Shown here piece by piece: positions 3,427-30,073 of a stretch of DNA of 32,582 bases (position 1 is the first letter of the stretch; every line of letters begins with the position of its first letter). Below the pieces are notes generated by a model, which did no database searches, was not told the DNA's origin, and was given only the letters and a program-made list of their open reading frames with translations. The DNA is from Clostridiales bacterium (GTDB lineage Bacteria > Bacillota > Clostridia > Christensenellales > Aristaeellaceae), in contig JAAYOH010000017.1 of assembly GCA_012520375.1 (NCBI GenBank), forward strand, positions 1 through 32,582. Direction: 5' to 3'. The position numbers were made by a program, and so were the translations under genes.

Positions 3427-3450
3427 AACCCTGGTTGACAACTGAATAGG

Positions 3451-3615
3451 AACTATGGTTCAAACCGCGTGCGCGGGGAGATAAAAGGGAAGCAAGTGTG
3501 AATCTTGCGCAATCCCGTTGCTGTATTTGCAGAGTCGCTTTCACAATGCCATTGGGTCGTGCCCGAGAAGGCGAAAGTTGATGATGACGCATAAGCCAGA
3601 AGACCTGCCATATTT
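3451..3615 (+). promoter_or_regulatory. cobalamin (B12) riboswitch
   Basis: The leader holds the hallmark elements of the cobalamin aptamer in order: AAAAGGGAAGCAAGTG (3483-3498), CCCGTTGCTGTA (3513-3525), GCCATTG (3548-3554, the GCCACTG box) and AGCCAGAAGACCTGCC (3594-3609, the B12 box). TATGG (3454-3458) pairs with CCATA (3608-3612), giving the closing P1 helix. It is followed by a strong intrinsic terminator at 3675-3705, so the sequence predicts transcriptional attenuation: cobalamin bound, downstream genes off. The genes below it are two ABC importer sets, which fits corrinoid uptake. Confidence 0.93.
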
Positions 3616-3674
3616 CATTTGACATAAGCTGCGGAGGACAGCGTATTTCGTCGGTGTTCCAAGAAGAACTTTTG

Positions 3675-3705: not shown

Positions 3706-3783
3706 ATGAATTGTGCGCTCGCGCGTTGGCCCCGTTCCCTTTCGTTGGATCAACCGGATTACAGGAAAGAGGGGTGTACTGTC

Positions 3784-4743
3784 ATGAAGAAGCGAATTAT
3801 CAGTCTGTTCCTTGCCCTGCTGTTGGCGGCGGCCTTCGCCTCCGGCGCATTCGCTGTCCAAGGCGACCATTATCCCGTGACCATCGAGGTGTACAACAAC
3901 GCGCGAGAATTGGTTCCCTATACGTTTGACAAAGCGCCGGAGCGCACGCTGGTCTATGGGCGCAACAACGTAGAGATCCTGCTGGCGCTGGGCCTTGAGG
4001 ACAACATCCTGATGGTGGCGGACTGCTCCAGCGTACTGCCGGAATACGAGGCGGCCTTTCAAAAGCTGGATTTTATCAAGAACCATCAGGAAGTCGGCTA
4101 TTTTGTCAAAGAATACGCATTGAGCCTCGAGCCGGATATGGTGATCGGCTGGTATTCGCTGTTCAATATGGCCGATCGCATGGGCGACGTGGATTTCTGG
4201 CATGAGCGCCATATCGGTACATACACGACCACCAACTCGGTGCTCAGGGACAACGAGTCCCTGGAAAACGAGTATAAGGACATCCGGAATCTCGCCGCGA
4301 TTTATGACCGGGAAGACAAGGCCGAGGAGATCATCTCCGAGATCGAGGCCGCCGTCGCCCAAGGCCGCGCGGCGGCCGAAGGCAAAGAACCGCAGCGCGT
4401 GTTGATCCTTGAAAAATGGGAAGGCGAGTATGACATCTATTCGGCGCATTCAGCCGCGGGTGATATCGCGGCGCAGATGGGCGCAGTGCCGCTGGGCGAG
4501 GTAGGCTGGAAAGACGAGCAGATCGTCGCGGCCAATCCCGAGGCGATTTACGCGGTGCACGTGAGTTCGGTGAGCGGCGAGGAGGCCATCGCGCTCTATA
4601 CGGAAAACCCGGCCTTGCAAAGCGTAGACGCCGTGAAGAACGGCCGTATCTACCCCGTGGTTTACTCCCTGGCTTATGCGCCGGGCGTGCGTACCCGCGA
4701 TACGGTGAAACTCTTCCTCAAGACGCTCTACGGCATCGAATAA
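3784..4743 (+). CDS. corrinoid/metallophore-type ABC substrate-binding protein (set 1)
   Basis: A 319-aa exported protein of the BtuF/FhuD-like periplasmic-binding family (Peripla_BP_2). It has a classical signal peptide (MKKRIIS, hydrophobic 8-19, AFA cleavage near residue 24) and no lipobox. The N-terminal lobe has RTLVYGRNNVEILLALGLEDNI and the C-terminal lobe ends with NPALQSVDAVKNGRIYPV, the usual order for the family. The ATG at 3784 follows GAGGGG and starts the signal peptide; an upstream in-frame start would bury it. It is the first gene after the cobalamin riboswitch, so a cobamide or cobinamide ligand is the likely role. Heme or siderophore specificity is not excluded by sequence alone. 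Without a lipid anchor, a Gram-positive cell would need another way to retain it. Confidence 0.85.
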   Translation: MKKRIISLFLALLLAAAFASGAFAVQGDHYPVTIEVYNNARELVPYTFDKAPERTLVYGRNNVEILLALGLEDNILMVADCSSVLPEYEAAFQKLDFIKNHQEVGYFVKEYALSLEPDMVIGWYSLFNMADRMGDVDFWHERHIGTYTTTNSVLRDNESLENEYKDIRNLAAIYDREDKAEEIISEIEAAVAQGRAAAEGKEPQRVLILEKWEGEYDIYSAHSAAGDIAAQMGAVPLGEVGWKDEQIVAANPEAIYAVHVSSVSGEEAIALYTENPALQSVDAVKNGRIYPVVYSLAYAPGVRTRDTVKLFLKTLYGIE

Positions 4744-4800
4744 ACGCGATCGCGCGGGGCGGCGAGCATGGGCAGACCGTCCCGCGCGCAAGGAGCACAT

Positions 4801-5877
4801 ATGCGAAAGCTGGATTTACGAAACGGCCTGATTCGGGGAACGCCGCTTTACATTCTGGCGATATTTGTCCTGTTGGCTCTGCTGGTTTTCTCCATTCTGT
4901 TCGCGGTTACGGTGGGATCGGCAGATTTATCCATCGGTCAAGTCTATGGCGTGATCTTCTATAAACTGTTCGGCCTTGGCGATCCGCAGACAATGGCCTC
5001 GGGCGCGATCCACGATATCGTATGGCTGATCCGTCTGCCGCGCATCGTGCTGGGCATGGCGGTGGGCATGGGCCTGGCTGTGGTAGGCGTAGTGATGCAG
5101 GCCATCGTGAAAAACCCCTTGGCCGACCCTTATGTGCTCGGTATTTCGTCGGGCGCGAGCTTGGGGGCGACCGTTGCGATCCTGCTGTCCGTGGGCGCTT
5201 TTGGCACAAACTCGGTGGGACTGTGCGCCTTCATCGGGGCGATGCTCGCTTCCTTCGCTGTCATATGGATATCCGGATTGGGCGGACGCATTACTTCGAT
5301 CAAGCTCGTTCTATCGGGCGTGGCGATGAGCTCCATGTGCTCGGCTTTTTCCAATATGATTGTCTACACAGCAAACGACGCCAACCGCTTCATGACCGTC
5401 ACGTTCTGGCTGATGGGCAGCCTTGCGAGCGCGCGCTGGGAGAGCAATGCTGTGATCCTGCTGATCGTGCTGATCGCTACGTTGTTTTTCATCAGTCAGT
5501 CCCGCGTGCTCAATTTGATGCTTTTGGGCGATGATACGGCAATAACGTTGGGCACGAATTTGCAGACATATCGTCGGCTGTATTTGATCGTCGCTTCCGT
5601 CATGGTGGGCTTTGTGGTGTATTCCTCGGGCGTCATCGGCTTTGTGGGCTTGATTATCCCGCATTTTGTGCGTGGACTTTTTGGCGTGGATCACAGACGG
5701 CTCTTGCCCCTTTCCGCGTTGTGCGGCAGCATTTTCCTCATCTGGGCGGACGTGGTAGCCCGCACCATTTTACCCCGAACCGAACTGCCCATTGGGGTGC
5801 TCATCTCGGTGGTGGGCGCACCGATATTTATTCTGCTGTTGGTCAAAAAGACCTACGGCTTTGGAGGCGGAGCATGA
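4801..5877 (+). CDS. BtuC/FecCD-type ABC permease (set 1)
   Basis: A 358-aa integral membrane protein of the FecCD/BtuC family, with about ten hydrophobic segments from residue 14 onward. Typical family signatures are visible: LIRLPRIVLGMAVGMGLAVVG, then NPLADPYVLGISSGASLGA (about 100-120), and GFVGLIIPHFVRGLFG (about 280-295), which forms the coupling region to the ATPase. The C-terminal ELPIGVLISVVGAPIFI is also conserved. The start at 4801 has AGGAG five bases upstream. The gene follows the binding protein by 57 bases, and its stop overlaps the ATPase start (ATGA), giving a coupled F-C-D unit. It is under control of the cobalamin riboswitch. Confidence 0.92.
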   Translation: MRKLDLRNGLIRGTPLYILAIFVLLALLVFSILFAVTVGSADLSIGQVYGVIFYKLFGLGDPQTMASGAIHDIVWLIRLPRIVLGMAVGMGLAVVGVVMQAIVKNPLADPYVLGISSGASLGATVAILLSVGAFGTNSVGLCAFIGAMLASFAVIWISGLGGRITSIKLVLSGVAMSSMCSAFSNMIVYTANDANRFMTVTFWLMGSLASARWESNAVILLIVLIATLFFISQSRVLNLMLLGDDTAITLGTNLQTYRRLYLIVASVMVGFVVYSSGVIGFVGLIIPHFVRGLFGVDHRRLLPLSALCGSIFLIWADVVARTILPRTELPIGVLISVVGAPIFILLLVKKTYGFGGGA

Positions 5878-6635
5878 TGTTTCTGGAGGCGAAGGCGGTA
5901 TCCTTTTCCTGGGGCGCCGCGAAGATCCTCCGCGATGTGTCGCTGAGTGTGAACAAGGATCGGTTTATCGGCATTATCGGGCCCAACGGCAGCGGAAAAA
6001 GCACGTTCCTCAAATGCATATACCGCGTGTTGAAGCCGGATGCGGGTTCGATCTGCCTCGAACAAACGCCGCTTGATGAGCTCACGCCCAGGCAGAGCGC
6101 AAAGAAGCTATCCGTGGTAGCGCAGCGGAATCAGTACGATTTTGATTTTACCGTCCGGGATATTGTGCTCATGGGACGTTCGCCTCATAAGAAGATGATG
6201 CAACGGGATACGGCCCAGGATTATGCCATCGTGCGGGCGGCGCTTGCCCGGGTCGGCCTCTCCGAGATGGAGACGCGGCCCTTCGCGGCCCTGTCCGGGG
6301 GAGAACAGCAGCGCGTCCTTTTGGCTCGGGCGCTGGCTCAGGAGACCCCTGCGCTCATATTGGACGAGCCGACCAACCACCTGGACATCAAATACCAATT
6401 GCACCTGTTGGGCACGGTGCGGACGCTGAACAAGACGGTCATCGCAGCCTTTCACGATCTGAACATCGCCGCCATGTACTGCGATGAAATTTATGTGCTC
6501 AAGGAAGGGCGCATTTACACCCACGGAACACCCGAAGCCGTGCTTACCCGGCAGATGATCAAGGACGTATACGACGTGGACGCCACCATTCACAAAGGAG
6601 AAAACGGGGCGCTCTTCGTACATTATCGCGCGTAA
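5874..6635 (+). CDS. BtuD/FecE-type ABC transporter ATPase (set 1)
   Basis: A 253-aa nucleotide-binding subunit that powers the set 1 permease at the cytoplasmic face. Walker A GPNGSGKST is at 36-44, the ABC signature LSGGEQQR at 140-147, Walker B LILDEP at 161-166 followed by TNHLD, and the switch His at 194 (AAFHDLN). All catalytic residues are present. The ATG at 5874 overlaps the permease stop and follows GGAGGCGGAGC. The next ATG, one codon later, is equally possible. It is the third gene of the riboswitch-controlled transcript. Confidence 0.93.
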   Translation: MMFLEAKAVSFSWGAAKILRDVSLSVNKDRFIGIIGPNGSGKSTFLKCIYRVLKPDAGSICLEQTPLDELTPRQSAKKLSVVAQRNQYDFDFTVRDIVLMGRSPHKKMMQRDTAQDYAIVRAALARVGLSEMETRPFAALSGGEQQRVLLARALAQETPALILDEPTNHLDIKYQLHLLGTVRTLNKTVIAAFHDLNIAAMYCDEIYVLKEGRIYTHGTPEAVLTRQMIKDVYDVDATIHKGENGALFVHYRA

Positions 6636-6669
6636 AGGTGCGGTCCCAAAAAGCGAAAGGGATGAACGG

Positions 6670-7581
6670 ATGAGTTTGTTGAAGAAATTGTACGCCAGGC
6701 GCCTTGGGACGTTGTTGTTGCTTGTGGCCTTTTGCGCGTGTCGCCCTGCCGCGGCAACACAAAGCGTGACGGCGCCTCAAAGGGTAGTCGCTTTGCTTGG
6801 TTCCTACGCAGAGGCTTGGATGCTCGCCGGAGGGACCTTGGCCGGCGCGACCGATGACGCCATGACCGAGCGCAAGATGTCCCTGGGCGCGGATGTGCGC
6901 ATCGTCGGTACCACCAAGGCCCCCCATATGGAAAGAATCATCGATATCGAGCCGGATCTCGTGCTCTTTTCGACGGATGTTTGTGAGCAGACGCAGGCTG
7001 CCGCCACGCTGGCGGAGATGGGGATCCACTGCCGTGGTTTTTCCGTCACCACATATGGCGAATACCTGGATATGATGAAAACCCTCTGCGCCCTTACTGG
7101 CCGGGAAGATCTATACCTGGAGCAATCGCGCACCGTGCGCGAGCCCATCGAATCGATGTGCAACAATGCGCGGAACGATCCGCGCTTTGGCAAGCGTACG
7201 GCTCTTTTGCTGCGCGCCTACTCCACGGGCGTCAAGGCCAAGGGCTCTGACAACATGGCAGGTGCAATGTTGTCGGATATGGGGCTGAACAACATGGCGG
7301 ACGGGGAAAATTCGTTGCTCGAAAGCCTGACACTCGAAGCCATTGTCGAGGCTGACCCGGATTATATTTTTGTTGTCACCATGGGAAAGGATGACGAAAA
7401 GACGATAGAGGCTTTGGCGGAAAGCCTTACGGACAATCCCGCCTGGGCCGGCCTGACGGCGGTGCGGGAAGGCCGTTATGTGCGGCTGGACAAGATGCTT
7501 TTTCATTATAAGCCCAACGCGCGCTGGGCGGAAAGCTATGCGTTTTTGTATGCGCTGTTGTATGATGATGAAACGGGGTAG
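6670..7581 (+). CDS. ABC substrate-binding protein, Peripla_BP_2 type (set 2)
   Basis: A 303-aa exported binding protein of the same broad family as that at 3784 but clearly divergent from it. Residues 1-24 form a signal sequence ending in AFCACR. Cys24 could be lipidated, but the box is non-standard. The mature part starts with PQRVVALLGSYAEAWMLAG, and later has IEPDLVLFS and the closing lobe ADPDYIFVVTMG, then NPAWAGLTAVREGRYVRL. It begins 34 bases after the set 1 ATPase with no terminator between, so it should share the cobalamin riboswitch. Its 3' end overlaps the start of the next permease. A corrinoid or related metal-complex ligand is inferred from context only. Confidence 0.82.
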   Translation: MSLLKKLYARRLGTLLLLVAFCACRPAAATQSVTAPQRVVALLGSYAEAWMLAGGTLAGATDDAMTERKMSLGADVRIVGTTKAPHMERIIDIEPDLVLFSTDVCEQTQAAATLAEMGIHCRGFSVTTYGEYLDMMKTLCALTGREDLYLEQSRTVREPIESMCNNARNDPRFGKRTALLLRAYSTGVKAKGSDNMAGAMLSDMGLNNMADGENSLLESLTLEAIVEADPDYIFVVTMGKDDEKTIEALAESLTDNPAWAGLTAVREGRYVRLDKMLFHYKPNARWAESYAFLYALLYDDETG

Positions 7582-8566
7582 AACGGTTTTTGCGTTGTGC
7601 GGCGTACTTCTTTTGCCGTTGTGCCTTTTGAGCCTGTCCGCAGGCGTCAGCAGCGTGGGCCTGGGCGATTTCCTTCGCGCCATTGCGTTGGGCGAGATTG
7701 CCGAAAAAGCGGCGCGCGTGCTTTGGCATGTGCGGCTGCCGCGGCTGCTAGCCGCGCTGTTGGCAGGCGCATCCTTGTCGCTGGCCGGCGTCATCTTGCA
7801 AGAGGTGTTGATCAACCCGCTGGCCGCACCCAGCGTGATCGGCGTCAACGCGGGCGCCGGGCTTTTTACGCTGGCCGCGCTGGTGCTTTTCCCCGCTTTT
7901 CCCCGCGTGACGCCTGTCGCCGCCTTTCTGGGCGCGCTGTTCTCCGCGCTTTTGGTGTACGGACTTGCTCGTTTTTCGGGGCTTTCCAAAACGACCATCG
8001 TCTTGGCAGGCGTAGCGGTGTCCAGCCTGCTTGGCGCGCTCATGGACGCCATCGTGACGTTCGTGCCGGACGCGCTGGGCAGTCGGTCGGCATTTTCCAT
8101 CGGCGGCTTTTCAAACGTCTCCATGGCAAAGCTTGAGTTTGCCTTGCCCTTTTGCTTGGTTGGCATGACTGTGGCGCTGTTGCTGCAAAGGGAACTGTCC
8201 ATCCTGTCGATGGGCGACGAGGTAGCGCGCAGCCTTGGCCTTCGCGTAAACGGATACAGGCTGTTGTTTTTGGCGGCGGCGGCCATGCTGGCCGGGGGCG
8301 CGATCAGCTTCTCGGGGTTGCTGAGCTTTATCGGCTTGATCACGCCCCACGTTGCCCGCAGGCTGATAGGCCGCGATACAGCCTATCTGATGCCTGTCAC
8401 CATGACGCTGGGGGCGCTTCTGCTCGCGGCCTGCGACTTGATGGCCCGCACGTTGTTCGCGCCTTATGAATTGCCCGTGGGCGTTATCCTGTCTTTTGTC
8501 GGCGCGCCATTTTTCCTGCGCCTTTTGATACAACGAAAGAGGAGCAACCGCCATGATGCGGTTTGA
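7562..8566 (+). CDS. BtuC/FecCD-type ABC permease (set 2)
   Basis: A 334-aa membrane protein of the FecCD/BtuC family with about ten hydrophobic segments. Signatures include VRLPRLLAALLAGASLSLAG, NPLAAPSVIGVNAGAGL, and the coupling segment GLLSFIGLITPHVARRLIG, then ELPVGVILSFVGAPFFLRLL at the C terminus. Three ATGs lie in a row at 7562, 7565 and 7568, all within the last codons of the binding-protein gene. There is no good ribosome binding site there, so translation is probably coupled to the upstream gene. Its last codons overlap the ATPase start at 8553. Confidence 0.9.
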   Translation: MMMKRGRTVFALCGVLLLPLCLLSLSAGVSSVGLGDFLRAIALGEIAEKAARVLWHVRLPRLLAALLAGASLSLAGVILQEVLINPLAAPSVIGVNAGAGLFTLAALVLFPAFPRVTPVAAFLGALFSALLVYGLARFSGLSKTTIVLAGVAVSSLLGALMDAIVTFVPDALGSRSAFSIGGFSNVSMAKLEFALPFCLVGMTVALLLQRELSILSMGDEVARSLGLRVNGYRLLFLAAAAMLAGGAISFSGLLSFIGLITPHVARRLIGRDTAYLMPVTMTLGALLLAACDLMARTLFAPYELPVGVILSFVGAPFFLRLLIQRKRSNRHDAV

Positions 8567-9305
8567 ACGCGTGTGCGCCGGTTATGGCGGCGTGCCCTGT
8601 CTGCACGATATCAGCGCCAGCTTGCGTGAAGGCGAACTTATTGGGCTGATCGGCCCCAATGGTTCGGGGAAGAGCACGCTTTTGAAGGTGGCTGCCGGGC
8701 AGCTTGCGCCCAACGGCGGTGGGGTGTACCTGGGCGAAGCTTGCCTCTGCGGTCTGTCTGTCAGGCAGATCGCCCGCAAGATCGCTTATATGCCGCAAAG
8801 CCGCGCAGTGCCAAATATTACTGTGCGCCAGTTGGCGGCGCACGGACGTTATCCGCACCTGGGCCTTGGCCGCGCGATGAGCAAGGGCGATTGGGCGATT
8901 GTAGACGCGGCCATGGAAACGGCGGGCATCGCGCGATTGGCTGACAGAACAGTAAGCGATCTTTCGGGCGGTGAACGGCAACGCGCTTACATTGCCATGG
9001 CGCTGAGCCAGCATACGGAAGTGTTGCTGTTGGACGAGCCTGCAGCGCATCTGGATATGGCGCATCAGTTCGCTCTGATGGAGATGCTGTCCCGACTGAA
9101 ATCTTCGGGCAAGACGGTCGTCGTGGTATTGCATGAGCTGGCCTTGGCGCTGACCTATTGCGACCGGTTGTTGCTGCTCGACCGCGGACGCCTGGTGCTT
9201 TGTGCTGCGCCGAAAAAAGCGTTGTCCTCCGGCATGCTCGAAACCACCTTTGGCATCCGCATCCATGCTGCGGCTGAAGGCGGCTACACCTTTGCGCCGC
9301 GCTGA
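8553..9305 (+). CDS. BtuD/FecE-type ABC transporter ATPase (set 2)
   Basis: A 250-aa ABC ATPase. Walker A GPNGSGKST is at 34-42, the signature DLSGGERQR at 136-144, Walker B LLLDEP at 158-163, and the switch His at 194 (VVLHELA). The segment after Walker B reads AAHLD rather than the usual TNHLD, a mild deviation in the D-loop region. GAGGAG stands eight bases before the ATG. It overlaps the permease gene by 14 bases. Last gene of the corrinoid-uptake transcript; only seven bases separate its stop from the stop of the convergent cbiL-like gene, and no terminator is visible there. Confidence 0.92.
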   Translation: MMRFERVCAGYGGVPCLHDISASLREGELIGLIGPNGSGKSTLLKVAAGQLAPNGGGVYLGEACLCGLSVRQIARKIAYMPQSRAVPNITVRQLAAHGRYPHLGLGRAMSKGDWAIVDAAMETAGIARLADRTVSDLSGGERQRAYIAMALSQHTEVLLLDEPAAHLDMAHQFALMEMLSRLKSSGKTVVVVLHELALALTYCDRLLLLDRGRLVLCAAPKKALSSGMLETTFGIRIHAAAEGGYTFAPR

Positions 9306-10209: not shown

Positions 10210-10867
10210 TCATCCTGGGAGCGCCATATATCCATGATCCCGGACGATTGCGTTGTTGGACTTTGGCTTGTTCGGCAGGTTTGTGCTCACGGATGACCGT
10301 ATGCGCGATTTTTGCTTGTCAGGCCAGGGGTTGGCCCGGGATTGGTTTGTTCCCATACCCGGATCCCTTCAAATCCCATCCTGCGGCGGGCGCCCTTGGC
10401 TTTCTGCTCTTCCCCTCAGCTCCTCGGCACGGCATTCTCAACGGAAAAAGCCGGATGATCATACATCTGTTATCGGCCTCTTAAAAACAACAACCGCATG
10501 CGTCGCGCACAGGGGGTCGTATTTAACCAAACTTTTCCAGAGCTCGTACAAAGGCCTGATAATGGATTTGTACGATTATATGAGGATCGCGATGGGATTG
10601 CGGGGAAACAAGACAAAAAGAGCGATCGCAAAAGGCGCACCGAATGCCGATATACAGGCGCTGGTCAACTGTATCCTGGGCGCCGACGGCCGGCAGATCG
10701 CGGCGGACAACCCCTACATCACGACGGAGTCAGGGGCAACGCATATGCGCGAAGGCGATGGCGCTGAAAGCTTGGCGGTTGTTCGGTATGGCCTCCCAAC
10801 ATCCCGAAACAAATGAATGCAAACCGGGCTATCCATGCGCGAACCGTGCCGCAGCGAGAAATACTTG
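10210..10867 (+). other. gene-poor stretch, possible decayed coding DNA
   Basis: About 650 bases between the cbiL promoter and the sugar-phosphate transporter promoter. An open frame runs through 10253-10816, but its first hundred codons look like random composition. Only the part from 10562 resembles protein. I see no RNA gene, repeat or insertion sequence in it. It separates the corrinoid island from the Ugp-like operon and may be the eroded edge of an inserted segment. Confidence 0.3.
10562..10816 (+). CDS. doubtful 84-aa ORF, unknown function
   Basis: The frame starts MDLYDYMRIAMG and continues with a plausible soluble composition (NADIQALVNCILGADG, ITTESGATH). AAAGG lies about nine bases before the ATG, a weak ribosome binding site. 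No motif is recognised. It could be a small protein or the remnant of a longer gene, since the upstream frame stays open without protein-like content. Confidence 0.25.
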   Translation: MDLYDYMRIAMGLRGNKTKRAIAKGAPNADIQALVNCILGADGRQIAADNPYITTESGATHMREGDGAESLAVVRYGLPTSRNK

Positions 10868-10896
10868 TTGACGAACGGACCGGGAATGTGTGTACT
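10868..10896 (+). promoter_or_regulatory. probable promoter of the Ugp-like operon
   Basis: TTGACG (10868-10873) and TGTACT (10891-10896) with a 17-bp spacer. TACTAT two bases further on is an alternative -10 box. It lies about 90 bases before the first gene start. Confidence 0.5.
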
Positions 10897-10988
10897 ATAC
10901 AATAGAAGTCCGCAGCTTTTGATCGGGAGCTCAATAAAGGTTGCCGGACGCAACACTCCACATCGTGGGCGAGGGGGCGATTCCGACC

Positions 10989-11897
10989 ATGGACAAGACC
11001 GCTGTTATCCTGCCGAAACGCCGCAAGAAAAAGACCTTCTATGAACACATAGAACCCTGGCTGTTCCTTTTGCCTGCACTGTGCGTGTTCGGCGTGTTCC
11101 TGTACTTTCCCTTTTTCAAGACCACATACCTCAGCGCCTTCCTGACCAACAAGTTCGGCCAAGCCAAGGTGTTCGTGGGCTTTCAGAACTACATCGACAT
11201 CCTGGCAGGCAAATACTCCGGCGAGTTCTGGAACAGCATTTGGGTCACGGTGCGCTTCGTGTTCTTCGTGGCCGGCGGGAGCCTTCTCATGGGCCTGTGC
11301 ACCAGCCTGATCACCGCCAAGGCGTTCCCGGGCAAGGCTTTTGCCAGCGCCATCTATGCCATGCCCATCGCCATCGCCTCTTCGGCGGCGGCCATGAGCT
11401 TCAAGATGATCCTGCACAAGTCCATCGGCCTGTTGAACTACCTGTTGGGCACCAAGATCAACTGGCTCAGCGACGAGGTGTGGACCTTCCCCATCCTGTG
11501 TATTTTGTCCATCTGGCTGGCCAGCGGCATCAATTTCATCTTCATCAGCGCCGGCCTGCGCAACATCCCGGGGGAGCTGTACGAGAGCGCCAGCATCGAC
11601 GGCGCCAACTACTGGAAGAAGCAGCTCCACATCACCCTGCCCTGCCTGAGCCCCACCCTCTTCTTCCAGATCCTGGTGAACATCATCAACGCTTTCCAGG
11701 CCTTCACCCTGGTGAAATTGCTCACCAATGGCGGGCCCACCTACAAGACGCAGGTCATCGTGTATTCCATCTACCTGGATGCTTTCCGCAATTTCCGCTT
11801 CGGTACGGCGGCGGCGCGGAGCATTGTGCTGTTCGTGATCATCATGGCCATCACACTCATTCAGTTCAGTACCGAGAAGAGGAGCGTGCATTACTGA
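10989..11897 (+). CDS. ugpA: UgpA-like ABC transporter permease
   Basis: A 302-aa inner-membrane permease of the MalF/UgpA type with six predicted transmembrane segments after a basic N terminus (KRRKKK). The EAA loop that contacts the ATPase is clear: ELYESASIDGANYWKKQLHITLP (about residues 197-219). The segment AFTLVKLLTNGGPTYKT is typical of UgpA. GAGGGGGC lies ahead of the ATG at 10989. Its stop overlaps the ATG of the next permease by one base. The assignment to glycerol-3-phosphate rests mainly on the binding protein downstream. Confidence 0.87.
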   Translation: MDKTAVILPKRRKKKTFYEHIEPWLFLLPALCVFGVFLYFPFFKTTYLSAFLTNKFGQAKVFVGFQNYIDILAGKYSGEFWNSIWVTVRFVFFVAGGSLLMGLCTSLITAKAFPGKAFASAIYAMPIAIASSAAAMSFKMILHKSIGLLNYLLGTKINWLSDEVWTFPILCILSIWLASGINFIFISAGLRNIPGELYESASIDGANYWKKQLHITLPCLSPTLFFQILVNIINAFQAFTLVKLLTNGGPTYKTQVIVYSIYLDAFRNFRFGTAAARSIVLFVIIMAITLIQFSTEKRSVHY

Positions 11898-12736
11898 TGG
11901 GCGCGACCACATTAGCGCGGGATCGGCGCATCTTCCTGAACAAGCTGGGGCACATCCTTCTGAACCTGCCCTTCGTGTGCCTCATCATCATCCCCCTGGC
12001 GTATACCCTCATGATGAGCGTGATGCCGGCCAGCGAGCTGTATTCCCGCTTCTTTCCCACCTTCGCGGAGTGGGACAGCTATGTGCAGGTGTTCACCAAG
12101 ACCCAGATCCCCCGGCACATCCTGAACAGCTTTATCGTGGCGGGCTCGGTCACCCTGCTGCAGATGACCACCTGCTCCATGGCCGCCTTCTCCTTCTCTT
12201 TCCTGCATTTCAAGGGCAGAGAGGTCGTGTTCATGTGCATCCTGGCCACCATGATGGTGCCCTGGGAAGCCACCATCATCGCAAACTACCTCACCGTTTC
12301 CGGTTGGGGCTGGCTGGATACCTTCAAGGTGCTCATCCTGCCCTACGGCTGCTCCGCCATGGGCGTGTTCCTGATGCGGCAGAACTACCTGACCTTCGCC
12401 AAGGAGCTCCACGAGGCGGCCAAAATAGACGGCTGCAACAACTGGCGCTTCCTGGCCACCATCGTGGTGCCCCTGTCCCGGCCCGCGCTGGGCGCTCTGG
12501 GCGCTTACGTGTTCCTGCAGCAATGGAACCAGTACCTGTGGCCCCTGCTGGTCACCAACAGCGACAAGGTGCGCACCGTCCAGATCGGCGTCAGCCAGAT
12601 GTACGACATCGACTCCGAGTCCATCGCCCTGATGATGGCGGCGGTGGTGGTGTGCCTGATCCCCAGCCTTTCCATCTTCGTATTCATGCAAAAGCAGCTG
12701 ATCGACGGCCTCATGGCGGGCGCGGTCAAAGGCTGA
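11897..12736 (+). CDS. ugpE: UgpE-like ABC transporter permease
   Basis: A 279-aa MalG/UgpE-type permease with six transmembrane segments. The EAA loop reads ELHEAAKIDGCNNWRFLATIVVPLSRPA (about 170-197). The family-typical ATMMVPWEATIIANYL and FLQQWNQYLWPLLVT are present. The ATG at 11897 overlaps the preceding stop (TGATG) with GAGGAG twelve bases upstream, so the two permeases are translated as a pair. The open frame extends far upstream, but only in the shadow of ugpA. Confidence 0.88.
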   Translation: MGATTLARDRRIFLNKLGHILLNLPFVCLIIIPLAYTLMMSVMPASELYSRFFPTFAEWDSYVQVFTKTQIPRHILNSFIVAGSVTLLQMTTCSMAAFSFSFLHFKGREVVFMCILATMMVPWEATIIANYLTVSGWGWLDTFKVLILPYGCSAMGVFLMRQNYLTFAKELHEAAKIDGCNNWRFLATIVVPLSRPALGALGAYVFLQQWNQYLWPLLVTNSDKVRTVQIGVSQMYDIDSESIALMMAAVVVCLIPSLSIFVFMQKQLIDGLMAGAVKG

Positions 12737-25140: not shown

Positions 25141-25782
25141 ATGGCCCTGATGAACGTCAACCCCACCCGCATGGAGATGAGCCGGCTGAAAGAGCGCCTG
25201 AAGACCGCAGTGCGGGGCCACAAACTGCTGAAGGACAAGCGGGACGAAATGATGCGCCGCTTTGTGGTGCTGGTGCGGGAAAACGCCAGGCTTCGGGCCG
25301 AAGTGGAAAAAGCCCTGTCCGCCGCCCTGGCCGATTTCTCCCTGTGCAGCGGCATCATGGAACCCGAAATGCTGGAGGAAGCCGTGTTGTACCCGGTGCG
25401 CACGGTGAACATTGCGGTGGGACAGGCCAACATCATGTCAGTAAACGTGCCCAAAATCAGCGTGGATGAAGAGAGCCTGGGGGAGATCGTGCTGAGCTAC
25501 GGCCTGGTCCAGACCTCTTCCCAGCTGGACGGCGCCATCGCGGGGCTGGCCAATGTGCTGCCCCAGATGCTCAGGCTGGCGGAGATCGAGAAGACCTGCA
25601 ACCTACTGGCGGACGAGATCGAGAAGACCCGGCGCCGGGTGAACGCCCTGGAATACGTCATGATCCCGGATCTGAATGAAACCATCCGCTTCATCGCCAT
25701 GAAGTTGGACGAAAACGAGCGCGGCGCCCTGACCCGCCTGATGAAGGTGAAAGATATGATCGCCGCGCGGGACCAGGCATAA
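25141..25782 (+). CDS. ntpD: V-type ATPase central-shaft subunit D
   Basis: A 213-aa protein forming the antiparallel coiled-coil shaft of the rotor. The N terminus NVNPTRMEMSRLKERLKTA and the C-terminal helix EKTRRRVNALEYVMIPDLNETIRFI are textbook family landmarks. It starts three bases after the subunit B stop. It is the last ATPase gene; the operon order G/H-I-K-E-C-F-A-B-D is complete, with no subunit missing. Confidence 0.96.
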   Translation: MALMNVNPTRMEMSRLKERLKTAVRGHKLLKDKRDEMMRRFVVLVRENARLRAEVEKALSAALADFSLCSGIMEPEMLEEAVLYPVRTVNIAVGQANIMSVNVPKISVDEESLGEIVLSYGLVQTSSQLDGAIAGLANVLPQMLRLAEIEKTCNLLADEIEKTRRRVNALEYVMIPDLNETIRFIAMKLDENERGALTRLMKVKDMIAARDQA

Positions 25783-25890: not shown

Positions 25891-27897
25891 ATGAAAGCAC
25901 TGATACTGAATTCGGGCATGGGCAGCCGCATGGGGGTACTGACCAGCGAGCATCCCAAATGCATGACCGAGATCTCCAGCCGGGAAACCATCCTGAGCCG
26001 TCAGCTGAACATGCTGGCTGCGGTGGGCATTGCCGATGTGGTGATCACCACCGGGTTGTTCGAGGCGGTGCTGGTCAACTATTGCCACAGCCTGAATCTG
26101 CCCCTGAACTACACCTTTGTGAACAACCCCGCCTTCCGGGAAACCAATTATATCTATTCCATCTACCTGGCCCGGGAACACCTGGACGACGACGTCCTGC
26201 TGCTCCATGGGGACCTGGTCTTTGAAAACGGGGTGTTGGACGAGGTGCTTGCTGCAGAGGGCAGCTGCATGACCGTCAGTTCTACCCTGCCCCTGCCCCA
26301 GAAGGACTTCAAGGCGGTGATTCGGGGACGGTATATCGAAAGGGTGGGGGTGGACTGCTTTACCGACGCCCTGGCTGCCCAGCCCCTGTACAAACTGCGC
26401 CGGGAGGACTGGCGGGTGTGGCTGCGGGAGATCTGCGCCTTTTGCGAGGCGGGAAAGCGCTCCTGCTACGCGGAGGACGCCTTCAACCAGGTATCCGACG
26501 CTTGCCTCATCCGCCCCCTGGACGTTCAGGATGCCCTCTGCGCCGAGATCGACGACCCGGAGGACCTGACCCGGGTGTCCGCCCAATTGAAGGAGATCGA
26601 AGACCGGCTGGTGTACATGTGCTTTTCCACCGACGTGCTCCACAGCGGCCATATTGCCATCATCCGAAAAGCGGTGCGCCACGGCAGGCTGATCATCGGG
26701 GTGCTGTCCGACGAGGCGGTGGCCAGCTTCAAGCGCTTTCCCCTGCTGCCCTTCCAGGAGCGCAAGTCCATCTTTGAGAACATCGCCGGTGTGTATCGGG
26801 TGGTGGAGCAGAAGAGCCTCAGCTACCGGGAGAACCTGGCCCTGTACCGGCCCGACTTCGTCGTCCACGGAGACGACTGGCAGACCGGCTTTCAGAAGCC
26901 GGTCCGGGACGAAGTGGTGGCTGCCCTGGCGGAATACGGCGGCAGGCTCATCGAATATCCCTACGACCGGGATCACAAATACAAGGCCCTGGAAGACCGG
27001 GTCCGGATGGACCTGGCCATGCCGGATATCCGCCGCGCCCGACTGAAAAAAATGCTGGCCATGAAGGGGATGGTCACGGCTCTGGAGGCCCACAGCGGCA
27101 TCACCGGGCTCATCGTGGAAAAGACCGTGGTGTACCGGGACGGCAAAACCTATCAATTTGACGCCATGTGGGTGAGTTCTCTGTGCGACTCCACCGCCAA
27201 GGGCAAGCCGGACATCGAGCTGGTGGATATGACCAGCCGCTTTCGCACCATCGACGACATCATGGAGGTCACCACCAAGCCCATCATCTTCGACGGGGAT
27301 ACCGGGGGACTGACCGAGCACTTCGCGTATACCGTGCGCAGTTTGGAGCGCATGGGGGTGTCCATGGTGATCATTGAGGACAAAACGGGGTTGAAGAAGA
27401 ATTCCCTTTTCGGCGTCGAGGTGGAGCAGACCCAGGCCCCCATCCAGGAATTCTGCGCCAAGATCGCCGCGGGCAAGCGGGCCCAGAAGACCCGGGACTT
27501 CATGATCTGTGCCCGGATCGAGAGCCTCATCCTGGAACAGGGCATGGAGGACGCCCTGACCCGGGCCAGGGCCTATGTAGGGGCAGGGGCCGACGCCGTG
27601 ATGATCCACAGCCGGAAAAAGGACCCGGCACAAATCTTTGAATTTGTGGAGCGGTTCCGGGCCGAGGACAAGGGGACCCCCATCGTGGTGGTGCCCACCT
27701 CTTTTGCCAGCGTCACCGAGGAGGAATTCAAAGAACGGGGGGTCAACGTGGTGATCTATGCCAACCAATTGACCCGCAGCGGCTTCCCCGCCATGCAGCG
27801 GGCAGCCAGAACCATCCTGGAGCACCGCCGGGCCCTGGAGGCGGACGCCCTGTGCATGTCCATCAAGGACATCATCAACCTGATCCCGGAGGAATAG
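25891..27897 (+). CDS. pepM: phosphoenolpyruvate mutase fused to two nucleotidyltransferase-like domains
   Basis: A 668-aa three-part enzyme. Domain 1 (about 1-232) is a LicC/PntC-like sugar-type nucleotidyltransferase: GMGSRM (9-14), HPKCM (21-25), HGDLVF with Asp108. Domain 2 (about 240-378) has the cytidylyltransferase fold signature HSGH (251-254). It seems to lack the ISST-type motif normally near its end; residues 354-368 read IEYPYDRDHKYKALE. Domain 3 (about 385-668) is PEP mutase with DGDTGG (468-473) and the diagnostic EDKTGLKKNS (496-505). It converts PEP to phosphonopyruvate, the entry step to C-P compounds. Fom1 of the fosfomycin pathway has a domain 2-3 layout and makes CMP-hydroxyethylphosphonate. 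AAGGGA precedes the ATG at 25891. Confidence 0.92.
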   Translation: MKALILNSGMGSRMGVLTSEHPKCMTEISSRETILSRQLNMLAAVGIADVVITTGLFEAVLVNYCHSLNLPLNYTFVNNPAFRETNYIYSIYLAREHLDDDVLLLHGDLVFENGVLDEVLAAEGSCMTVSSTLPLPQKDFKAVIRGRYIERVGVDCFTDALAAQPLYKLRREDWRVWLREICAFCEAGKRSCYAEDAFNQVSDACLIRPLDVQDALCAEIDDPEDLTRVSAQLKEIEDRLVYMCFSTDVLHSGHIAIIRKAVRHGRLIIGVLSDEAVASFKRFPLLPFQERKSIFENIAGVYRVVEQKSLSYRENLALYRPDFVVHGDDWQTGFQKPVRDEVVAALAEYGGRLIEYPYDRDHKYKALEDRVRMDLAMPDIRRARLKKMLAMKGMVTALEAHSGITGLIVEKTVVYRDGKTYQFDAMWVSSLCDSTAKGKPDIELVDMTSRFRTIDDIMEVTTKPIIFDGDTGGLTEHFAYTVRSLERMGVSMVIIEDKTGLKKNSLFGVEVEQTQAPIQEFCAKIAAGKRAQKTRDFMICARIESLILEQGMEDALTRARAYVGAGADAVMIHSRKKDPAQIFEFVERFRAEDKGTPIVVVPTSFASVTEEEFKERGVNVVIYANQLTRSGFPAMQRAARTILEHRRALEADALCMSIKDIINLIPEE

Positions 27898-27900
27898 TCC

Positions 27901-28968
27901 ATGCAGAAGATCCTGTGGACCGGGGAGCCGGGGGAGACCCTGTCGGAACTCCTGGAAACTTTGGGGGCTTGCCGTTGCATGCTGGTGTGCGGCGCCTCCT
28001 ACGACGGCCTGGGCATACGGGGCGCCTTCGAAAGAAGGCTGGCCCTGCGCTTTTCCTCTTTTACCCCCAATCCCCTGTGGGAGCAGGTGGAGGATGGAAT
28101 TGCCCTCTTCCGGGAGGCGGGCTGCGACAGCCTGTTGGCGGTGGGGGGCGGCAGCGCCATGGACGTGGCCAAGTGCATCAAGCTCCGCGCCGGAGGCCAG
28201 GCCCTTCCCCTGATCGCCCTCCCCACCACCGCGGGGACGGGCAGCGAGTCCACCCGCTTCGCCGTGGTGTACCGGGACGGGGTCAAGCAGTCCGTGGCGG
28301 ACCCCTGTATCCTGCCGGACTACGCGGTGCTGGCCCCCGGCGTGCTGAAGACCCTGCCCCTGTACCCCAAACAGTGCGCCCTGCTGGACGCCCTGTGCCA
28401 GGGCGTCGAGTCCTGGTGGTCCCTGAACAGCACCGGGGAGAGCAGGGGACTGTCCAAACGGGCGGTGGAGCAGATCCGAAACCATATGGACGGGTACCTG
28501 GCGGGGGACGAGGCGTCCGGTGGGCCTATCCTCGAGGCGGCCAATCTGGCGGGACAGGCCATCAACAGTACCCAAACCACGGCGGCCCACGCCATGAGTT
28601 ATAAACTCACCTCTCTGTATCACATCCCCCACGGCCACGCCGTGGCCCTGTGCCTGCCGGAGGTGTGGCAGCACATGCTGGAGCACCCGCGAGCGTTGCG
28701 GGATCCCCGGGGCCCGGCGCACCTTGAAGGGGTGCTCCGGGACGCAGCCCGTGCCTTGGGCTGCCCGGGCCCGGCGGAAGCCGTCGCCTGGCTGCGGGAG
28801 CTGCCGGACCGGTTGGGGATGGAGCGGCCTGCGCCGAAAAACTGCGAAAAAGAATTGCCTGCCCTCGTCGCTTCGGTGGACCCAACCCGCCTGGCCAACC
28901 ATCCGGCGTCCCTGGGAGAGGCGGATTTTATCGTTCTGTATGGGAGGATCCTGAACCATGGAGCTTGA
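27901..28968 (+). CDS. iron-type alcohol dehydrogenase, probable phosphonoacetaldehyde reductase
   Basis: A 355-aa group III (Fe-containing) alcohol dehydrogenase. The cofactor loop GGGSAMDVAK is at 82-91 and PTTAGTGSE at 108-116. Predicted metal ligands are Asp163, Gln167 (where the usual DALxH motif has His), His230 (TTAAHAMSY) and His244 (IPHGHAV). Similar enzymes (FomC, PhpC, DhpG) reduce phosphonoacetaldehyde to 2-hydroxyethylphosphonate, and the position between PEP mutase and phosphonopyruvate decarboxylase makes that the best assignment. GGAGG precedes the ATG, three bases after pepM. Its 3' end overlaps the decarboxylase start by 11 bases. Confidence 0.87.
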   Translation: MQKILWTGEPGETLSELLETLGACRCMLVCGASYDGLGIRGAFERRLALRFSSFTPNPLWEQVEDGIALFREAGCDSLLAVGGGSAMDVAKCIKLRAGGQALPLIALPTTAGTGSESTRFAVVYRDGVKQSVADPCILPDYAVLAPGVLKTLPLYPKQCALLDALCQGVESWWSLNSTGESRGLSKRAVEQIRNHMDGYLAGDEASGGPILEAANLAGQAINSTQTTAAHAMSYKLTSLYHIPHGHAVALCLPEVWQHMLEHPRALRDPRGPAHLEGVLRDAARALGCPGPAEAVAWLRELPDRLGMERPAPKNCEKELPALVASVDPTRLANHPASLGEADFIVLYGRILNHGA

Positions 28969-30073
28969 TTTCTTGCGGGAATTTGAATTTTTTACCGGCG
29001 TCCCCGATTCCCAGTTGAAGCCCCTGTGCGACCACCTGATGGCCCGCTGCGGCATATGCACGAGGCATATCATCGCCGTCAACGAGGGAAACGCGGTGGC
29101 CCTGGCAGCGGGTTATCACCTGGCCACCGGCAAAGTGCCGGTGGTGTACCTGCAAAACAGCGGCATCGGCAACATCATCAACCCGGTGGCCTCCCTGATG
29201 CACCCCAAGGTATACGGCATCCCCTGTCTTTTCATCATCGGCTGGCGGGGGGAGCCGGGCGTCCATGACGAGCCGCAGCACATTTTTCAGGGGGAAGTGA
29301 CCCTGAAACTGCTGGAGGACATGGACGTCAAAACCTTTGTCATCGGGAAGGAGACCGCCCGGGAAGAGGTGGAACAGGCCCTGGACGCCTTCCGGCCCCT
29401 GCTGGCGGCGGGGGGACAGGCGGCTTTCGTGGTGCGAAAGGGCGCTCTGAAGCCGGGAGACGTGGTCTCCTACCGCAATGGATATTCCATGAGCCGGGAG
29501 GAGGCCATCCGGCAGGTCGTCCGGGCGGCGGGGGAGGACCTGATCGTGTCCACCACGGGCAAGGCCTCCCGGGAATTGTTTGAGATCCGGGAAGCCCTGG
29601 GCCAGGGCCATGGGCGGGACTTCCTCACCGTGGGTTCCATGGGGCACGCTTCCTCCATCGCCCTGGGCCTCGCCCTGAACTGCCCCGAGCGCCGGGTGTG
29701 GATCGTGGACGGGGACGGGGCGGCCCTGATGCATTTAGGGGCCATGGCGCTGCTGGGGAACAATGCCCCGGAGAACGTGGTACACGTAGTCATCAACAAC
29801 GGGGCCCACGAAAGCGTGGGGGGCATGCCCACGGTGGCGGGCAGCATTGACCTGCTGCAGATCGCCCGGGGTTGCGGGTACCCCAACGCCTGCTCGGCGG
29901 ACAGCCTTGATGCTCTGTCCGAAGCTCTCGGGGCGGCGGCCCGGAGAAAGGCTCTGTCCCTCGTGGAGGCTAAGTGCGCCATTGGGGCCCGGGAGGACCT
30001 GGGCCGGCCCACCGCCACCGCTATGGACAACAAGCGGGCTTTCATGGAAAACATCAGGTGCCGAGAGCATTGA
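28958..30073 (+). CDS. ppd: phosphonopyruvate decarboxylase (TPP-dependent)
   Basis: A 371-aa thiamine-diphosphate enzyme that decarboxylates phosphonopyruvate to phosphonoacetaldehyde, the step that pulls the unfavourable PEP mutase reaction forward. It opens with FFTGVPDSQLKPLC (11-24), typical of Ppd. The TPP-activating Glu43 is in VNEGNAVALAAG, and the TPP/Mg motif runs from GDG (252-254) to INNGAHESVGG (about 278-288). Ppd is a short, single-peptide form of the TPP fold, and the length fits. GGAGG lies before the ATG, which overlaps the dehydrogenase gene. No aminotransferase follows; the transcript ends at a strong terminator. Confidence 0.94.
   Translation: MELDFLREFEFFTGVPDSQLKPLCDHLMARCGICTRHIIAVNEGNAVALAAGYHLATGKVPVVYLQNSGIGNIINPVASLMHPKVYGIPCLFIIGWRGEPGVHDEPQHIFQGEVTLKLLEDMDVKTFVIGKETAREEVEQALDAFRPLLAAGGQAAFVVRKGALKPGDVVSYRNGYSMSREEAIRQVVRAAGEDLIVSTTGKASRELFEIREALGQGHGRDFLTVGSMGHASSIALGLALNCPERRVWIVDGDGAALMHLGAMALLGNNAPENVVHVVINNGAHESVGGMPTVAGSIDLLQIARGCGYPNACSADSLDALSEALGAAARRKALSLVEAKCAIGAREDLGRPTATAMDNKRAFMENIRCREH

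Follow-up and report, generated by a model that had tools for sequence, protein, structure and literature searches.

As reportedly found by Yu et al. in 2014, the phosphonoglycans of Glycomyces and Stackebrandtia contain 2-hydroxyethylphosphonate (HEP). Marine work has likewise described HEP bound to polysaccharides, with phpC occurring together with pepM and aepY, and lipopolysaccharide choline phosphotransferase and glycosyltransferase genes as neighbours (PMC9381506). The cytidylyltransferase (CyTase) of Fom1 has a published reaction that converts HEP to its cytidine monophosphate (CMP) derivative, CMP-HEP, and Rice et al. (2019), who characterised two cytidylyltransferases for 2-aminoethylphosphonate (AEP), counted 42 triple fusions among 1485 phosphoenolpyruvate (PEP) mutase (Ppm) proteins (PMC6697681). 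The gut archaeon Methanocorpusculum vombati has been described as carrying PPM and PPD in one cluster with a reductase predicted to act on phosphonoacetaldehyde, and horizontal transfer was suggested (PMC10035134). Here, we analyzed a stretch of 32,582 nucleotides from an uncultured Clostridiales bacterium (GCA_012520375.1, contig JAAYOH010000017.1; the whole stretch is called the window below), in which a triple-fusion PEP mutase is followed by an iron-type alcohol dehydrogenase (Fe-ADH) and a phosphonopyruvate decarboxylase (Ppd). These three genes probably form a phosphonate tailoring cassette, by which HEP would be made, activated with CMP and transferred to the cell surface. Triple fusions, polysaccharide-bound HEP and the annotation "phosphonoacetaldehyde reductase" are already known; we found no paper in the open-licence literature that treats a triple fusion with an ADH as a HEP cassette, and the link between triple fusions and an ADH is not described in the main text of Rice et al., where "dehydrogenase" and "alcohol" each occur 0 times (PMC6697681).

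The cassette spans positions 25891-30073 and consists of three open reading frames (ORFs) on the + strand. A sequence-only reading of this DNA had placed a PEP mutase, an Fe-ADH and a Ppd in one operon, and on re-reading the window we found its coordinates exact and the Pfam and NCBIfam families in agreement. Gene 1 (25891..27897) encodes a triple-fusion PEP mutase of 668 amino acids, made up of a LicC/PntC-type nucleotidyltransferase domain (residues 1-235, 25891..26595; PF12804), a Fom1-type cytidylyltransferase domain (residues 239-360, 26605..26970; PF01467, with H251 and H254 in an HxGH motif) and a PEP mutase domain (residues 385-668, 27043..27897; TIGR02320). Gene 2 (27901..28968; PF00465) encodes the Fe-ADH, a proposed phosphonoacetaldehyde reductase, and gene 3 (28958..30073; TIGR03297) encodes the Ppd, also called AepY. 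The genes had been described as overlapping, which is right for genes 2 and 3 (11 bases) and wrong for genes 1 and 2, which are separated by a 3-base gap; neither an aminotransferase nor a phosphonatase gene lies in the operon, as had been said. The arrangement is not a matter of chance, because it recurs in dozens of genomes.

In the pathway that we propose, the PEP mutase would make phosphonopyruvate, Ppd would decarboxylate this to phosphonoacetaldehyde, and the Fe-ADH would reduce the aldehyde to HEP. The Fom1-like domain, perhaps together with the PntC-like domain, would then convert HEP and cytidine triphosphate to CMP-HEP, which a LicD- or TagF-type transferase could use as donor to attach HEP to a glycan or polymer of the cell surface. 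The PntC-like domain may likewise be a cytidylyltransferase for HEP, or it may activate a partner substrate. Sequence supports the protein families, the linkage of ADH and Ppd with the triple fusion, and the enrichment of transferase genes beside the cassette in relatives; the chemical steps, the role of the PntC-like domain and the surface destination in this organism are inferred. HEP with nucleotide activation, as the sequence-only reading had it, is the best supported reading, now joined by a dual-cytidylyltransferase architecture and an association with transferases; we favour it because ADH and Ppd are linked to the fusion, AEP transaminases are rare near it, LicD and TagF genes cluster around it, and one related locus carries a PntC-ADH fusion.

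The PEP mutase domain of gene 1 scores 396.8 bits with TIGR02320 (cut-off 319.55) and contains the EDKX5NS motif of Ppm as EDKTGLKKNS (residues 496-505), and the whole protein aligns with 14 full-length homologues at 61-74% identity (alignment A1). Of the solved structures, that of the Fom1 CyTase (5x3d, E 4.1e-39) comes closest to the middle domain, with 60 of 120 residues identical; together with the HxGH motif and the fusion of PF01467 to PepM, this places it in the Fom1 type and supports the Fom1-like cytidylylation that had been proposed. The earlier description of the protein had missed the second nucleotidyltransferase domain, at the N-terminus. This domain carries GMGSRMGVLTSEHPK, which conforms to the G-X-G-(T/S)-R-X4-8-P-K motif, and its best profile matches are LicC (1jyk) and PntC (6pd1). 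Its predicted structure has a predicted local distance difference test score (pLDDT) of 93.9, and the best VIA structure match of this model is PntC (6pd2, Z 29.4, root-mean-square deviation 1.9 over 230 residues), followed by LicC with Z 26.6. R13, K23, D108, E195 and E219 are invariant in alignments A1 and A3. The model of full-length gene 1 has a mean pLDDT of 74 and a predicted template modelling score of 0.56, and its PEP mutase part is too poor to judge contacts between domains.

Since PntC, the best structural match of the N-terminal domain, is an AEP cytidylyltransferase and AEP is the common surface phosphonate (PMC6697681), we considered that a transaminase encoded elsewhere might make AEP, with the PntC-like domain forming CMP-AEP and the ADH serving a side branch or detoxification. 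The active site bears on this alternative. In PntC, according to Rice et al., Glu104 and Glu196 lie near the AEP amine (PMC6697681). The equivalent of Glu196 is kept as E195 in 105 of 105 N-domain hits in our profile alignment, while the position of Glu104 (numbering of Treponema denticola PntC) is occupied by His106 in gene 1 and by His in 104 of the 105 hits (109 loci, duplicates included), so that only one of the two carboxylates is retained; Lys153 of T. denticola PntC had no reliable placement in the alignment. His106 would fit a substrate without an amine and by itself proves nothing, because the His is there whether or not an ADH is present; as a signature of HEP it was weakened for the same reason, being invariant also where the ADH is absent. 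The sole Glu among the hits belongs to a different gene, a fusion of a PntC/LicC-like nucleotidyltransferase with LicD (PF04991, 132 bits) at L130:7309-8985, directly upstream of a triple-fusion cassette.

The host genome also speaks to an AEP pathway. It does contain class V aminotransferases, and it is 95% complete; its best match to the AEP transaminase model TIGR03301 reaches 36.3 bits against a cut-off of 360.8, and no phosphonatase match (TIGR01422) exceeds 32 bits against a cut-off of 220. The suggestion that HEP is made in place of AEP thus fits this genome, and a search for the aepZ aminotransferase elsewhere that was to count against it gave no match over the cut-off. Further evidence comes from loci in which the same parts are split or fused differently. 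In L058, L059 and L061, a separate PntC-like gene lies between Ppd and a CyTase-PepM gene, with the ADH downstream, giving the same four functions. In L062, which stems from another family within the same taxonomic order, a single protein joins the PntC-like domain to an Fe-ADH (10528-12213, 561 amino acids; PF12804 at 39.3 and PF00465 at 103.3 bits, each above cut-off), and its gene adjoins Ppd and a CyTase-PepM with a CyTase that shares 64% identity with that of Fom1. T. denticola PntC forms one protein with the AEP transaminase, which makes its substrate (PMC6697681). By analogy with that fusion, HEP, as the proposed ADH product, should be the substrate of the PntC-like domain, an expectation drawn from this one locus; it makes the HEP reading slightly stronger, and the AEP alternative and a diffusible product, which is discussed below, slightly weaker. 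With AEP-transaminase-like genes also rare among relatives (see below), we regard the AEP pathway as unlikely.

CyTase identity to Fom1 is 46-58% in the triple fusions (median 51%; 95 ORFs, duplicates included) and 50-64% in the few ADH-linked two-domain PepMs (L058, L059, L061, L062). It is 36 and 39% in the two PepMs beside a class V aminotransferase (L054, L055) and 39-55% in those with neither gene nearby (L053, L056, L057, L060). L057 also encodes a stand-alone CyTase of 141 residues (7865-8290), 56% identical to the Fom1 CyTase, which adjoins the CyTase-PepM gene; no ADH was recognised nearby.

The Ppd of the cassette scores 454.9 bits with TIGR03297 (cut-off 312.5) and is the only match over cut-off in the host genome. 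The dehydrogenase belongs to PF00465 (111 bits), lies beside PepM and Ppd as expected for a phosphonoacetaldehyde reductase, and is 48.3% identical to a Segatella copri protein that RefSeq gives this name. Three of the four metal ligands of the Asp-His-His-His set are kept (D163, H230 and H244), while position 167 is Gln instead of His. Drift of the metal site is known in the HEPD subfamily, but the variation described there in a review of the Fe-ADH family concerns the Asp and not this His (PMC5125639).

To place the cassette among its relatives, we scanned one genome per species, which named the best 80 of at least 572 confirmed relatives. Of these 80, 79 match gene 1 over its whole length, and L111, at a contig edge, matches from residue 34. 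Counts per locus are based on 92 distinct full-length triple-fusion loci, including that of the window, a set biased to close triple fusions. Duplicates (L069, L073, L140) were dropped, and the 92 include neither unfused loci nor triple fusions that are broken or incomplete (L040, L045, L051, L052). Genes were called from codon usage by a custom script. Among the broken fusions, that of L045 (8011-9972, genome G003) is interrupted by an in-frame TAG and is either a pseudogene or an assembly error. Within 8 kb, 83 of the 92 loci have an Fe-ADH and 79 a Ppd, and an AEP-transaminase-like gene, sought with one query from L054, occurs in 3, two of which also have an ADH. The HEP branch is supported by this pattern. 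L137, labelled Chloroflexi, favours the AEP alternative in that its triple fusion has an AEP-transaminase-like gene instead of the ADH.

The gene order is PepM-ADH-Ppd in most loci labelled Clostridia, and PepM-Ppd-ADH in the 18 labelled Bacteroidota. In a quick tree with labels from record titles, these 18 Bacteroidota rows fall among Bacillota; the label changes twice, where shuffled labels give a mean of 16 changes, and this suggests few transfers between phyla. Loci with the cassette are further found in records labelled Bacteroidales and in one under the label Lentisphaeria (L136), so that the branch extends beyond a Clostridia-like organism, where it had been placed. Many bacteria of gut and rumen have related gene sets, whose chemistry is predicted from sequence.

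The proposed surface destination draws on the neighbours of these loci. A LicD/TagF-type gene is found within five genes in 44 of the 92 loci (LicD 28, TagF 18). The share of LicD/TagF genes falls with distance from the cassette, being 32/169, 19/158, 8/138 and 4/124 at offsets of 1, 2, 3 and 4 genes, and 59 of 465 genes at offsets 1-3 are of these types against 3 of 364 at offsets of at least 5 (p = 1e-12, a guide only, as genes in one locus are interdependent; L069, L073 and L045 were dropped from this count and L140 was kept). The TagF set was defined by a three-round profile, and Pfam confirmed the members from L075, L129, L141 and S. copri and not the C-terminal part of L042. Genes of the dTDP (deoxythymidine diphosphate)-rhamnose type, flippases and glycosyltransferases recur among the neighbours as well. 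In S. copri DSM 18205, the order is aepX, aepY, phosphonoacetaldehyde reductase, a TagF family gene, O-antigen polymerase and flippase; the cassette of this strain (L144, NZ_CP085933.1) lies on a record termed a 167-kb circular plasmid, beside O-antigen-type genes. Across 150 genomes, the window's own included, gene 1 is matched in 28, and TagF occurs in 10 of 17 genomes with a triple fusion (two of them partial) and in 33 of 133 without (Fisher p 0.008), a weak co-occurrence in which kinship is ignored.

Some further proteins near the cassettes were recorded. Proteins of ~620-700 residues near pepM cassettes (L129:6796-8673, L042:2890-4971, L054:6132-8195, L099, L100, L115 and L142) cluster together; those of L042 and L129 have a YidC-like domain (PF02096), and that of L129 also a TagF-type domain (PF04464). 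Frames of 670-770 residues with a weak PF04464 match were found in 5 of 28 pepM-bearing genomes and in 1 of 122 others. L075:13291-16065 encodes a protein of 924 residues whose N-terminal part is YidC-like (PF02096) and which weakly matches the sulfatase family (PF00884, 23.7 bits against a cut-off of 25); it shares its locus with a cassette and a TagF-type gene.

Because HEP, unlike AEP, has a free hydroxyl, CMP-HEP could be polymerised by TagF in the manner of cytidine diphosphate (CDP)-glycerol, giving a poly(hydroxyethylphosphonate) that would be analogous to teichoic acid and carry C-P bonds in the backbone. The Fom1-like domain would then supply the chain units and the PntC-like domain a different primer or partner unit, and the TagF-type genes that adjoin cassettes, without a CDP-glycerol gene nearby, would build the chain. 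In none of 20 TagF-bearing loci was a TagD-like gene found outside PepM, and such a gene might lie elsewhere in those genomes. We consider such a polymer very unlikely.

CMP-activated head groups are the usual donors for CDP-alcohol phosphotransferases. Such an enzyme might turn CMP-HEP into a lipid with a HEP head group, and an ordinary CDP-alcohol transferase of the host genome could act in this way. However, the CDP-alcohol phosphatidyltransferase family was absent among the 52 proteins that we scanned with Pfam, which cover some neighbours and five proteins from elsewhere in the window's genome, that genome not having been searched for the family. A phosphonolipid thus seems to us an improbable product.

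Several observations weigh against HEP activation and surface transfer in this organism. With regard to transfer, 48 of the 92 loci have no LicD/TagF gene within five genes and 9 have no ADH nearby, with some contigs ending early. Beside the window's cassette there are no transferase or glycan genes, LicD-type or other: V-ATPase genes precede it, and no glycan genes adjoin. A genome-wide search for LicD (PF04991), one of the phosphonate transferase types that had been suggested as a check, gave zero matches. The host genome does have two TagF-type proteins, one of them beside a TagD-like gene, and we rejected these as proof of a transferase: the cassette-free congener G001 has two TagF genes as well, so that neither looks specific to the cassette. 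Support for the surface destination comes from relatives (LicD/TagF, flippases, glycosyltransferases). The search for the missing transferase also listed one sulfatase-family protein of 668 residues in the host genome. With regard to the enzymes, the best NCBIfam model for the ADH, TIGR03405 (Phn_Fe-ADH, described as PsrA and not as PhpC), matches with 130 bits, far under its cut-off of 423.7, and Gln replaces one metal ligand in 30 of 86 homologues, the window's included, the other three ligands being invariant. His106 is found also in loci without an ADH and in L137. Finally, the scheme calls for a single cytidylyltransferase domain, and gene 1 has two.

The lack of an adjoining transferase would also suit a diffusible phosphonate, either HEP or an unseen derivative, for instance an antimicrobial. 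Several phosphonate antibiotic pathways run via HEP. For the PPM-PPD-adh1 cluster of M. vombati, an antimicrobial has been suggested (PMC10035134). However, we recognised no phosphonate tailoring oxygenase, methyltransferase or exporter in or beside the operon, and in many relatives glycan genes and LicD/TagF are found in their place. We give a diffusible product a small chance, and surface transfer of HEP remains the probable function.

The host genome is a metagenome-assembled genome (MAG) of 2.29 Mb in 106 contigs, with the window on contig C75. A gene for V-type ATPase subunit D (25141..25782, + strand; PF01813) ends 108 bases upstream of the cassette. The cassette has a GC content of 0.636 and the V-ATPase genes 0.635, and base composition gave no signal of foreign DNA in this comparison; a scan for promoters and terminators found no more than in shuffled sequence. 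In G001, which has no match to gene 1, the V-ATPase genes lead to other genes, the next ORF being malic-enzyme-like as judged from its translation. Elsewhere in the window, a cobalamin riboswitch (RF00174, 103 bits) lies at 3439-3626, with two gene sets apparently for ATP-binding cassette (ABC)-type uptake of metal or cobalamin downstream at 3706-9305, their roles being read from translations only.

If our reading is true, the surface phosphonates of gut and rumen bacteria would include HEP besides AEP, and a HEP branch with built-in CMP activation would span Clostridia and Bacteroidales, S. copri DSM 18205 included. Xylanibacter ruminicola D31d, S. copri DSM 18205 and Ruminococcus sp. FC2018 carry the cassette in records not labelled MAG, and such isolates would allow the substrate of the triple fusion and the transferase that uses CMP-HEP to be tested. 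C-P polymers resist phosphatases and could affect phosphorus cycling in the gut, phage adsorption and host recognition.

Among described systems, the polysaccharide-bound HEP of marine work (PMC9381506) and the phosphonoglycans of Glycomyces and Stackebrandtia are of the type that we propose as end product, in other organisms. The three enzyme types of the M. vombati PPM-PPD-adh1 cluster, also from a gut microbe, are those of the window's operon, although an antibiotic role has been suggested there (PMC10035134). The Fe-ADH resembles PhpC and FomC (HEPD, cd08182; PMC5125639) in its context beside PepM and Ppd, and differs by the Gln at one metal ligand. In gene 1, CyTase and PEP mutase follow each other in one chain as in Fom1 of the fosfomycin pathway, with half of the CyTase residues identical, while the PntC-like N-domain is extra and no phosphonate methyltransferase or epoxidase was recognised in the window's operon. 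That N-domain shares the G-X-G-(T/S)-R...PK motif with PntC and differs in having His for its amine-contacting Glu, and with PF12804, PF01467 and Ppm in one protein, gene 1 has the make-up and the nucleotidyl activation logic of the triple fusions of Rice et al. (PMC6697681).

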